NCBI GenBank assembly: GCA_902541825.1
Contig: CACBRY010000008.1
Span: 1 to 40,014 of the forward strand
Length of the DNA stretch: 40,014 bases
From: an uncultured Pelagibacteraceae bacterium
Lineage (GTDB): Bacteria; Pseudomonadota; Alphaproteobacteria; Pelagibacterales; Pelagibacteraceae
Direction of reading: 5' to 3'
Part shown: piece after piece, positions 14,694 through 17,594 of the stretch
How positions within the stretch are numbered: the stretch's first letter is position 1
How the letters are laid out: every line of letters starts with the position of its first letter
Program-made: the position numbers and the translations under genes
The notes under the pieces: generated by a model
The model's database searches: none
Told to the model about the DNA's origin: nothing
The model's input: only the letters and a program-made list of their open reading frames with translations

Positions 14694-16394
14694 ATGCAAT
14701 TAAGTAGAATAAACAGTTTAGTAGAACTTTTTTTTACAAAGTATAAAGAAATTAACTCAGTTGCTGAAAAACCATTTTTAAAATGGTTAAAAGAAAATGA
14801 AAAAGATTTTTTGACTTGGGAACAAGTTGCTTTAAAAATTCAAATTTTATCTGAGTACTTAAGAGCAAACTTAGCTGATGGAGACCGATGCATCCTATTA
14901 TCTGAAAATCGACCAGAGTGGCTTATCTCTGACATATCAATTATGAATGCAGGTGGTGTCACGGTGCCATTATTCACAACTTATTCAGAGAAAGATTATG
15001 GATACATCATTAATGATTGTAAACCAAAAATTTGTATCGTCTCTAATGAAATCCAATTAAAAAAAGTTAAAAAATTTATATCAGAAAAGATAAAAGTTTT
15101 ATCTATTGAAAACATAAATGAAAGAGTTGAGAATATAGAAAATATATTCGATGCATATTTTAAAAAAAAGAAATCAAATCCTCGGATAAGTTTTAATCAA
15201 AATCTTGTAAGGAAAGATCTTGCTTGTATAATTTATACATCTGGAACAACTGGTAATCCTAAAGGAGTAATGCTTAGTCATGGAGGAATTTTATCAAATT
15301 GTGAGGGAGCTCAAGAAATATTAAATCAATTAGTTCAGGATAATGAACCCACTTTTTTAACATGGTTACCATTATCTCATTCATATGAGCATGCAGTTCA
15401 ATTTGTTCAAATTTCACTTGGTGCAAAAATTTATTATGCCGAAAGTCTAGAGAAGTTATTATCCAATATGTCTATTGCAAAACCTACGATTATGACAGCT
15501 GTCCCAAGATTTTATCAAAATTTGTACAGTAAAATTTCAATGAATTTTTCAAAACAAAAAGGATTTAAGAAAAAACTGATATTATCCACTATCTCACTTG
15601 GTACCAAAAAACTAAATAATGAGAATTTAACATTGAGCGAAAAATTAATTAATTTTTTTTGTGAAAAACTAGTAAGAAAAAAGATTAAAAATCAGTTTGG
15701 TGGAAAACTAACGGCTTTTGTATCTGGGGGTGGTGCTTTAGACCAAAAAATTGGAGAATTTTTAAACGCAATAGGATTGCCTACCCTCCAAGGCTACGGT
15801 CTTACAGAGGCCTCACCTGTTGTAAGTTGTAATATTCCTGGAAAAATCAAAATCGACACAGTAGGACCTCCTTTTAAAACAAACCAGGTAAATATAGCTG
15901 CCGATGGTGAAATTTTAGTTAAAGGTGAAAATGTCATGCTTGGTTATTGGAACATGAAAAAGGAAACAACTGATGTAATAAGAAATGGCTGGTTGCATAC
16001 TGGTGATATTGGAGAGATCACAGAAGATGGAAATTTAAAAATTACTGATAGAAAGAAAGAAATAATAGTTAATCTTGGTGGTGACAACATTTCACCATCT
16101 AAAATTGAAAATTTATTATGTTTAAATGAAAAAATTAAACAAAGTTTTGTTTATGGAGACAAAAAAACTTATTTAGTTGCATTAATTGTCTCTGAAAGTA
16201 CTGAAAATAGAAAAGAAATTGAAATTTTTTTAGAAAATATAAATAAAACTTTATCTTTAGTTGAAAAAGTTAAAAAATTTAAATTAATTAAGGAAGAATT
16301 TTCAATTGAAAATGGAATGTTAACACCAACATTAAAATTAAAAAGAAAAAAAATTTTAGATAAATATAAAGATGATTTAGAAAAACTTTATTAA
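14694..16394 (+). CDS. Long-chain fatty-acid-CoA ligase (AMP-forming)
   Basis: Activates fatty acids to acyl-CoA through an acyl-adenylate. The 566-residue ANL-family protein has P-loop motif YTSGTTGNPKGVMLSH, the A5 motif QGYGLTEASPVVS, the A7/A8 region GWLHTGDIGEI and DRKKEIIVNLGGDNISP, and a C-terminal catalytic lysine in LKLKRKK. It is closest in plan to the long-chain acyl-CoA synthetases (AMP-binding with a long linker). The ATG comes 4 nt after the tRNA-Leu CCA end with no ribosome-binding site, so cleavage of the tRNA would leave an almost leaderless mRNA. Confidence 0.92.
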   Translation: MQLSRINSLVELFFTKYKEINSVAEKPFLKWLKENEKDFLTWEQVALKIQILSEYLRANLADGDRCILLSENRPEWLISDISIMNAGGVTVPLFTTYSEKDYGYIINDCKPKICIVSNEIQLKKVKKFISEKIKVLSIENINERVENIENIFDAYFKKKKSNPRISFNQNLVRKDLACIIYTSGTTGNPKGVMLSHGGILSNCEGAQEILNQLVQDNEPTFLTWLPLSHSYEHAVQFVQISLGAKIYYAESLEKLLSNMSIAKPTIMTAVPRFYQNLYSKISMNFSKQKGFKKKLILSTISLGTKKLNNENLTLSEKLINFFCEKLVRKKIKNQFGGKLTAFVSGGGALDQKIGEFLNAIGLPTLQGYGLTEASPVVSCNIPGKIKIDTVGPPFKTNQVNIAADGEILVKGENVMLGYWNMKKETTDVIRNGWLHTGDIGEITEDGNLKITDRKKEIIVNLGGDNISPSKIENLLCLNEKIKQSFVYGDKKTYLVALIVSESTENRKEIEIFLENINKTLSLVEKVKKFKLIKEEFSIENGMLTPTLKLKRKKILDKYKDDLEKLY

Positions 16395-16511: not shown

Positions 16512-16540
16512 TTGACATAACGTGTATAAAAAAATAAAAA
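16512..16540 (+). promoter_or_regulatory. Promoter of the poly-basic micro-gene
   Basis: A perfect -35 TTGACA (16512-16517), 17-bp spacer and TAAAAA (16535-16540) as -10. It is the only consensus -35 box I noticed before a gene in this window. Transcription from it would give a leader of roughly 45 nt, long for this genome, and containing an inverted repeat. Confidence 0.6.
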
Positions 16541-16543
16541 TAA

Positions 16544-16574
16544 GTTAATCGCGAATCAATTTGATTCGTTTAAC
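16544..16574 (+). promoter_or_regulatory. Structured 5' leader of the micro-gene
   Basis: CGAATCA (16552-16558) and TGATTCG (16562-16568) form a perfect 7-bp stem with a 3-nt loop, flanked by GTTAA (16544-16548) and TTAAC (16570-16574), which extend the pairing across a small asymmetric internal loop. It ends 6 nt before the Shine-Dalgarno AGGGAG (16581-16586). It may be an mRNA-stabilising hairpin, a translational switch or a protein-binding dyad in DNA. Confidence 0.5.
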
Positions 16575-16592
16575 TAAAAAAGGGAGCTAAAG

Positions 16593-16670
16593 ATGCCTAA
16601 GAGAAGAAAAAAAGCAAAGAAGGCTAAGAAAAAAGCTAAGAAAAAAGCTAAAAAAAGAAGAAGAAGATAA
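16593..16670 (+). CDS. 25-residue Lys/Arg/Ala poly-basic micro-protein
   Basis: An ATG at 16593 opens a 25-codon frame: MPKRR, then three KKA-type repeats (lysine pairs or triplets separated by Ala), ending in RRRR and TAA. Apart from Met, Pro and four Ala, every residue is Lys or Arg. A strong Shine-Dalgarno AGGGAG sits 6 nt before the ATG. A consensus promoter, a hairpin leader and a strong terminator bracket it, so it looks like a dedicated monocistronic gene. The repeat resembles the C-terminal tails of histone H1-like and AlgP-like bacterial proteins, suggesting nucleic acid binding, but I know no named family. A 12-nt repeat (GCTAAGAAAAAA) underlies the peptide repeat. Confidence 0.7.
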   Translation: MPKRRKKAKKAKKKAKKKAKKRRRR

Positions 16671-16691
16671 TAACTTAGTATTCTTTATAAA

Positions 16692-16732
16692 AAACGCTTC
16701 TCATAACTTTATGTGTGAGAGGCGTTTTTTTT
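16692..16732. terminator. Strong bidirectional rho-independent terminator
   Basis: Arms AAACGCTTCTCATA (16692-16705) and TGTGAGAGGCGTTT (16714-16727) give a 14-bp stem with three G-U pairs and an 8-nt loop, followed on the plus strand by eight T and on the minus strand by six T. It ends the micro-gene transcript on one side and the helicase-terB-fdxA-carD operon on the other; its T tract touches the carD stop codon. Confidence 0.9.
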
Positions 16733-17594
16733 ACTCATCTATTTGTTCCTCAACATCTGAAATTGGCTCTTCAACGGTTAATTCACTTGTGCTAGTAGTT
16801 GAACTTGATGATTTAGTATCTTTTTCTTCTTCCTTTACTTCCTTATTAAGATTTCTTTTTAGAGCTTTATCAAGTTTTTTTTGTGTATCTTCTCTTGAAA
16901 CATTTAAAACAATTTGGAATTCTGAAAGAATTCGATCATAAGCTTTCTCAAATAGTTGTCTTTCACTATAAGATTGATCAATCATAAGATCATCACCTTT
17001 ATTAAGATCTCTTACTACCTCAGCTAATTCATAAATTTTACCAGAAGAAATTTTAGCCTCATATTCTTGAGCTCTTCTACTCCACATAGACCTTTTAATT
17101 TTTGGTTTACTTTTTAAAATTGAAATACTTTTATTAACTTGATTTATTGTTGAAAGTGGACGTAAATGAGATTGTTTATTGACTGGCACCATACCGTTAG
17201 CTTTGTCTTTTTCAAATTTTATAATATAGGTTTCAACATCTATCCCACCAATGTTAATTTTCTTAAATTCTGTAATTTGACCTACACCGTGTTTTGGATA
17301 CACAACATAATCTTTAATTTTATATTCCCTCTTTTCAGTATTTTGTTTTTTTACTTTTTTGATTTCGGGTTTAATTTCATTACTCTTAGGAATTCTTAAA
17401 TTTTCATTTTGAATTTCAGTTTTTTGTTTGCTCTTTTTTTCAACTTTCTTTGGAATTTTTGTAATTTTCTTAGTTTTTTTTACCTTGATAATTTTTGTTT
17501 TTTTATTTTTTTTGATTGGTTTTTTTTTGACTTTTGGTTTGGTTTTTTTTTTAAAGGTTTTCTTTAAAATATTTTTCAAACTTATTTTGCTCAT
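16731..17594 (-). CDS. carD: CarD/CdnL-family RNA polymerase-binding regulator with Lys-rich N-terminal tail
   Basis: The core CarD_TRCF domain begins near residue 92 ([16 protein letters not shown]) and includes the RNA polymerase-interaction fold through [13 protein letters not shown]. The following helical region, with [14 protein letters not shown] and the basic/aromatic DNA-contact residues, runs to about 235. CdnL-type proteins stabilise the sigma-70 open complex, especially at rRNA and housekeeping promoters. Odd is the 90-residue N-terminal extension, with 25 lysines in the first 50 residues, and a Ser/Thr/acidic C-terminal tail after 255. Usual CdnL proteins are about 160-190 residues; this is 287. 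The start overlaps fdxA by 44 bp; no internal Met exists before the core, so an ATG start nearer the core is not possible. Confidence 0.9.

Follow-up and report, generated by a model that had tools for sequence, protein, structure and literature searches.

Protamines are very short, extremely basic proteins that have no globular part, and they are Arg-rich and eukaryotic. Chlamydial Hc1 is a Lys-rich histone-like protein that binds DNA. The chlamydial DNA-binding protein Hc2 varies in size by whole Lys-rich repeats and is 165-237 residues long (PMC2848022). In mycobacterial HupB, a histone H1-like tail with KAAK/PAKK-type Lys/Ala(/Pro) repeats is fused to HU and is reported to be needed for stable DNA binding (PMC5676037). 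Pseudomonas AlgP, of about 352 residues, has an N-terminal helical domain and a low-complexity Lys/Ala/Pro tail of KPAA repeats that has been compared to histone H1; according to the same report, it is thought to link DNA and polyphosphate, and it spaces polyphosphate granules (PMC9239181).

Here we describe a 25-codon gene from an uncultured member of the Pelagibacterales (SAR11), found in a window of 40,014 nucleotides (the whole stretch of DNA that was analysed). By analogy with the above systems, the SAR11 gene may be an H1-like tail made as a free peptide. The AAPKKK and KKAKKKA repeats of its long relatives are similar to those of HupB; however, the SAR11 tail is a gene of its own, mostly of 21-35 residues, and the one HU that was read has no tail. 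The likeness to AlgP is one of composition, with KKKA rather than KPAA repeats. Unlike Hc2, the SAR11 forms have no Pfam match, and to protamines there is a resemblance only. The ribosomal proteins bL34, bL36, bTHX and bS22 are alike in length and basicity, but the SAR11 peptide has no family match and its length drifts freely.

SAR11 cells are among the smallest free-living ones, and the chromosome of a complete relative is about 1.3 Mb. With 25 codons the gene lies below the usual length cut-off of gene callers, and its tryptic fragments (MPK, AK) would not exceed three residues; it would thus be overlooked twice, in annotation and in proteomics. It is not described among the matches listed for SAR11 or Pelagibacter literature on lysine-rich, H1-like, nucleoid or small-ORF subjects, a search that leaves most subscription papers outside its coverage. 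The letters of the peptide gave no match in the full-text literature, and the matches listed for SAR11 nucleoids and histones include no account of chromosome packing. The table of the SAR11 mdRNA-Seq paper consists of annotated genes. The main text of a 2009 survey of structured RNAs in Pelagibacter does not mention carD; intergenic regions with unannotated coding sequence were excluded from that survey and listed in its supplement, and an earlier sighting of the gene there is possible (PMC2704228).

The gene and its expression signals in the window

The original prediction was of a self-contained micro-gene for a 25-residue peptide with 19 Lys/Arg residues, the rest being Met, Pro and four Ala, bracketed by TTGACA-N17-TAAAAA, a hairpin leader, an AGGGAG Shine-Dalgarno sequence at 6-nt spacing and a 14-bp terminator stem. 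Translation of the ORF gives MPKRRKKAKKAKKKAKKKAKKRRRR, in agreement with this (19 K/R, 4 A, M and P, with K/R/A repeats and the lone P at position 2). Both promoter elements and the Shine-Dalgarno sequence can be read directly, and minimum free energy (MFE) folding returned the leader hairpin and the terminator stem, the latter with 17 pairs instead of 14. The parts of the locus are as follows.

14694-16394, + strand: acyl-CoA synthetase-like gene, upstream neighbour outside the unit (name from the original prediction)
16512-16517, + strand: -35 element TTGACA (direct reading and promoter scan)
16535-16540, + strand: -10-like TAAAAA, N17 after TTGACA (direct reading)
16543-16575, + strand: 5' leader hairpin (MFE fold), expected near the mRNA 5' end
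16552-16568, unstranded: palindrome CGAATCAATTTGATTCG, with two inverted GANTC (CcrM) sites at 16553-16557 and 16563-16567
16581-16586, + strand: Shine-Dalgarno AGGGAG inside the near-invariant AGGGAGCTAAAG, 6 nt before the ATG
16593-16670, + strand: ORF for the 25-residue Lys/Arg/Ala peptide (translation and comparison)
16689-16730, unstranded: terminator stem (MFE, 17 pairs), probably two-way and common to the peptide gene (+) and carD (-)
16731-17594, - strand: carD, convergent neighbour and synteny anchor (Pfam domains)

The promoter scan paired TTGACA with AAAAAT at 18 nt instead. TTGACAT was present in 95/95 distinct upstream regions of sufficient length, and the A/T-rich block at TAAAAA was strongly conserved among the aligned loci. 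The RNA from 16542 to 16735 had an MFE of -46.1 kcal/mol vs a shuffle mean of -29.85 (sd 3.63; z = -4.48), and none of 200 shuffles was equally good. In the single sequence, the scan gave 6 promoter-like sites against 6.0 expected, and a strict-rule terminator scan found none. These scans do not go beyond chance, and the case for the unit therefore rests on comparison.

The terminator stem is flanked by an A-run and, on the opposite side, by a T-run, and can thus serve both the peptide gene and the convergent carD. This arrangement bears on whether the peptide is a cis-acting leader peptide that controls a neighbour through ribosome stalling. Polybasic stretches slow ribosomes, as such control would need; however, the ORF is followed by the terminator and then by convergent carD, with no same-strand downstream gene in the unit. 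We rejected a leader peptide or attenuator for this lack of a co-transcribed downstream gene, and find the reading hardly credible.

In the CarD of the window, an N-terminal stretch of some 90 residues, rich in Lys, precedes the RID domain; Pfam places domains at 91-147 and 157-242, and the C-terminal tail is rich in Ser, Glu and Asp. That a CarD with additional charged tails adjoins a gene for a polycation is curious. In a relative, an HU gene has a ribosome-binding context (L226, 1491-1503; CGGAGCTAAA-ATG) much like the AGGGAGCTAAAG-ATG of the peptide gene.

Conservation of the ORF next to carD

The window's genome is a draft of 873 kb in 41 contigs and is 73.6% complete. We used carD, chosen independently of the peptide, as the anchor for comparison, and a search for it matched 81 of the 101 relatives, counting the window's genome. 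The carD regions of all 48 other matches in the window's genus were taken, as were 20 of the 32 from the sister family (f2), together with 56 named SAR11 carD loci from the 80 matches listed. A further 30 genomes, mostly of other genera (labelled g below), added carD loci from 24. Including the window, the comparison covered 149 Pelagibacterales loci, of which 148 were reached via carD. A first set of 105 loci comprised the window, the 48 same-genus genomes and the 56 named records, without f2. Some genomes are present in both collections, so that the loci are not all independent.

Exactly one ORF beginning ATG-Pro/Ala, with more than 60% K/R, was found in 102 of the 105 first-set loci. The three misses are contig ends, two of which start within the same ORF and one of which stops within carD. 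The 102 copies represent 98 distinct regions and 38 distinct proteins of 21-35 residues. Conservation of the frame in relatives had been proposed as a test of the gene, and the gene passed it. Further, the ORF occupies the same place beside carD in the other genera (24 carD-bearing genomes). A uniform filter recovered it in 143 of all 149 loci. Four of the six others (L040, L054, L059, L129) are cut at contig ends, and L060 fell below the composition cut, yet the ORF is present. In the remaining one (L192, the only g12 genome), the length of an A-run shifts the frame, so that the C-terminal Arg codons are no longer read; this is the sole broken copy among those that cover the ORF, and reflects a genuine mutation or a mistake in assembly. 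On these comparative grounds we conclude that the 25-codon ORF is a real, conserved protein-coding gene of Pelagibacterales.

No comparable Lys-rich ORF was seen beside carD in 24 named non-SAR11 alphaproteobacterial loci, judged by eye from composition-filter output, several of these loci being cut short. A class-wide profile search gave matches in 2 of 240 genomes and none in two that hold the gene, G101 and that of the window; the profile is therefore uninformative about other Alphaproteobacteria. One exact pattern gave no match in viral contigs.

Besides the gene itself, the only place in the window's genome that matches the peptide-gene DNA at E 0.001 or better is a Lys-rich stretch on another contig (C2; L002, 325-1584). 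It lies in a 419-residue FecR-like protein (named by eye) whose final ~150 residues are Lys-rich repeats. We rejected paralogy with this stretch, which is the tail of a larger protein. In five sister-family loci (L055, L056, L060, L070, L073), unlike in the window, a CsaA-like gene lies near the long basic gene, and an RpoH-like sigma factor gene lies on the opposite strand (both named by eye).

Composition of the peptide and selection on it

The 2678 residues of the 102 first-set copies are K (1461), R (532), A (472), M (102), T (59) and P (52), and nothing else; copies in other genera have some G and S as well. Among single-base changes to the codons used, 49% leave this set of six residues, 8% create a stop and 18% are silent. 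In 193 equal-length pairs, pS was 0.316 and pN 0.107, a ratio of 0.34; by length class, the ratio was 0.05 for the 25-residue class and 0.29-0.53 for the others. The replacements were K/R, K/A, K/T and A/P, plus one A/R and one A/T. The original expectation of a self-contained gene under selection is borne out by this ratio together with the presence of the ORF.

These results bear on whether the locus encodes a small regulatory RNA with an incidental ORF, or a dual-function RNA. A short stand-alone transcript is expected, and the 5' hairpin and the terminator are conserved, as they would be for such an RNA. However, the frame is kept in every covered copy but one under the constraint just given, length shifts by whole residues, and the ribosome-binding site and ATG are near-invariant. 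The alternative named at the outset, a conserved RNA structure with frameshifts in the ORF, failed as well, because structure is conserved together with the frame and not in its place. A small RNA only was rejected on account of the conserved frame, and we consider this class of readings very improbable.

Arg lies mostly towards both ends of the peptide, with Lys and Ala central. The gaps between residues other than K/R were 3 or 4 in 116 of 146 cases. Gaps of 1, 3 or 4 made up 96%, vs a mean of 51% and a maximum of 62% in 1000 shuffles. Such spacing would place Ala and Thr on one side of a helix, the helix itself being predicted.

Lys is encoded by AAG in 29% of cases vs 14% in 30 ORFs of the window, and the longest A-run is 7.1 vs 9.4 expected. 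Further, the usage of AGA (99%) and GCT (81%) exceeds that of this genome's ribosomal block (87% and 45%). This codon choice and the short A-runs would fit slippage avoidance and strong expression; repeat duplication could be another source of the codon spread.

Searches of Pfam and NCBIfam with three short and four long forms gave just three chance matches (E 0.76-6.8), far under the cut-off, and no form, short or long, matched a PDB family; low-complexity filters weaken the former test, and HMMER filters handle such sequences badly. The signatures of bL34, bL36, bTHX and bS22 were likewise not reported by Pfam or NCBIfam for the three short forms, under the same filters. This accords with the early statement that the peptide is not L34, L36 or Thx, and a known ribosomal protein was rejected as far as family searches reach.

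The promoter region and the leader hairpin

CGAATC was present within 85 nt upstream of the ORF in 140/140 loci with enough upstream DNA (3 of 143 were too short). TTGAC stood 30-38 nt ahead of it in 138 of the 140, and the other two (L033, L191) lie at the end of the available DNA. The measured distance was 33-36 nt, about 34, so that CGAATC begins at approximately +6 if TTGACA is taken to begin at -35. The leader collection that gave these distances required CGAATC, and its invariance rests on the separate count of 140/140.

The pattern CGAATC-N1-9-GATTCG had one match in the 873-kb genome, which is not evidence alone because the reversed control also matched once. The promoter-plus-palindrome pattern was found in 268 of 397 genomes of the order, apparently once each, vs about 7 for the reversed control. 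Many of the misses are genera g5-g9, whose 3' arms differ; of five same-genus misses, L190 and L191 carry the gene at the edge of a contig, and the other three are without a carD match.

A hairpin was predicted at this place in 31/31 folded leaders from 11 groups, with z from -0.8 to -6.9 vs mononucleotide shuffles. CGAATC..GATT(C/T)G fits 99 of the 102 first-set leaders, a count in which the CGAATC/GATTCG stem was imposed by the search expression. One further outer pair was kept (A-U, G-U or G-C) in 61 of 63 distinct leaders and the innermost pair in 49; pairs still further out were not conserved, being present in 34 and then 8-13 of the 63. In g8, g9 and g10, the 3' arm is mostly GATTTG, which gives a G-U pair, and in g5, g6, g7 and g11 the 3' arm has moved, with pairing mostly to TCACTTA.. 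or TCACATA... One pair in f2 is A-U in three and C-G in five of the eight distinct leaders that are long enough, and the close loci L050 and L051 have the arm GCGAA/TTCGC. Pairing is thus maintained across genera, which supports a real RNA hairpin, though some leaders are weak alone.

In the 10 loci of g5, g6, g7 and g11, CGAATC is kept throughout, and its first 3-4 letters are unpaired in nine (L212 pairs). Since they are retained although mostly unpaired in the predicted folds, the letters of CGAATC would themselves matter.

GANTC methylation

The GAATC within CGAATC is a GANTC, the target of CcrM, just behind the expected transcription start. Neither this site nor the size series given below formed part of the original prediction. 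At least one GANTC was present within 85 nt upstream in 140/140 loci and two or more in 126; the second was lost in several genera, so a paired-site switch is not general. The RAMA domain is typical of CcrM, and RAMA domains of this type were found in 34 of 41 genomes, including 16/16 of the most complete, and in 1 of 14 controls, which was Caulobacter. The window's genome, itself 73.6% complete, gave no CcrM in this search. Of 61 genomes searched for GcrA, 54 gave a match, among them that of the window, as did 2 of 14 controls, one of them Caulobacter.

SAR11 is reported to have a CcrM homologue; in Caulobacter without CcrM, the misregulated genes are enriched in those whose promoters have conserved GANTC sites (PMC3973325). 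GANTC sites of Pelagibacter are methylated in culture and at sea, where the unmethylated sites are mostly intergenic; in culture, 99.86% are given as fully methylated (PMC9516812), so that a static switch would have little scope. A methylation role for the invariant GANTC is plausible from the comparison. The near-complete methylation in culture (PMC9516812) and the hairpin that g8, g9 and g10 keep via G-U despite the lost second GANTC would suit another explanation, in which CGAATC is mere initial-transcribed or hairpin sequence, or the operator of some repressor, with no CcrM role. The retention of largely unpaired CGAATC in g5, g6, g7 and g11 argues against it. We consider this explanation about as probable as its opposite, and it bears on the timing of expression only.

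Size series and leader length

Counted from the MAK start, the product has 21-24 residues in g8, g9 and g10, 31 in g6, 32 in g11 and 36-38 in g5, and in g7 it has 34-58 residues with APAKKRK-type repeats. Forms of 40-99 residues occur in sister family f2, genus g13 included, and start with MEELKVIFAKA or MEDLKIIFAAA followed by KKKAKKKAAPKKK repeats. These long forms are Lys/Ala/Pro proteins like histone H1 tails, with the low complexity and short K, A and P repeats that characterise such tails, and they share their site and the start of their leader with the short forms. The resemblance to H1- and AlgP-like tails that had been noted for the window peptide thus holds for the longer syntenic relatives, and does not extend to a family match in Pfam, NCBIfam or the PDB.

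A leader was obtained for 144 of the 149 loci; in this count, g1 takes in the 56 named records. From CGAATC to ATG, leaders measured 53-63 nt in f2, g13, g5, g7 and g11, whose proteins have 32-99 residues, and 21/21 distinct leaders of these groups carry a CCTC/CTCC that could pair with the Shine-Dalgarno sequence, as it does in several of the predicted folds. In g1, g8, g9 and g12, leaders measured 36-42 nt, with CCTC/CTCC in 0/66. Leaders of g6 (49-51 nt) and g10 (49 nt) are intermediate and without anti-Shine-Dalgarno. The loci with CCUC/CUCC in long leaders are those of f2 among L055-L074 and, besides these, L195, L197, L203-L205, L207, L209, L210 and L213. This anti-Shine-Dalgarno-like element may be a translational switch. 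Because longer proteins go with longer, anti-Shine-Dalgarno-bearing leaders, the series suggests that the short peptide, with its open ribosome-binding site, is the trimmed descendant of an H1-like gene whose translation was limited, the direction of this change being taken from an unrooted comparison.

The main rival to a role on the chromosome is that the peptide binds RNA or the ribosome, as a tiny accessory ribosomal protein or an rRNA/mRNA chaperone, perhaps limiting its own synthesis through the anti-Shine-Dalgarno element in the lineages with longer forms. Several ribosomal proteins are tiny, Lys/Arg-rich and stand-alone, as this peptide is. The element in all 21 long leaders suits autoregulation, and the AGA and GCT usage beyond that of the ribosomal block fits strong expression. 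However, the element is absent in g1, g6, g8, g9, g10 and g12, length varies from 21 to 99 residues, the gene adjoins carD outside any ribosomal operon, and no ribosomal family was matched, with the weakening by low-complexity filters already mentioned. We regard this reading as rather unlikely.

Discussion

The best explanation, in which we place middling confidence, is that the gene encodes a free-standing, minimal polycation like a histone H1 tail, which would neutralise nucleic acid, most likely the chromosome. A single promoter would give a small stable mRNA protected by its 5' hairpin. The peptide would turn helical on a polyanion, with Ala or Thr every 3-4 residues along one side and Arg clustered at its two termini, and would neutralise and condense nucleic acid, most likely the AT-rich chromosome. 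Genes of the HU/IHF fold were present in 31/31 genomes, and the one HU that was read, in the relative L226, stops one residue past the HU domain and has no basic tail; the peptide might supply in trans the tail that this HU lacks. The weaker part of the explanation is that the GANTC behind the transcription start may tie expression to CcrM methylation and hence to replication, possibly with GcrA.

H1-like composition is no proof of a DNA role, because AlgP also serves polyphosphate granules. A partner of polyphosphate or other granules would have AlgP as its model, with its H1-like tail and its part in granule spacing (PMC9239181). AlgP, however, has an N-terminal domain of 124 residues besides its repeats, and most SAR11 copies consist of a tail of 21-35 residues only. 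No polyphosphate gene caught the eye at the locus. A granule partner is improbable.

A stronger version of the chromosomal role would be a protamine-like bacterial peptide, shrunk stepwise from about 100 to 21-25 residues under a single promoter, with the GANTC read as a replication mark, that neutralises the charge of each new round of DNA. We advance this version with considerable doubt. The size series from 99 to 21 residues bears on the extent to which genome streamlining can cut a protein under a fixed promoter, and the invariant GANTC makes CcrM timing of a chromatin component in SAR11 directly testable. If the stronger version is true, one of the ocean's most abundant bacterial groups would have a protamine-like peptide.
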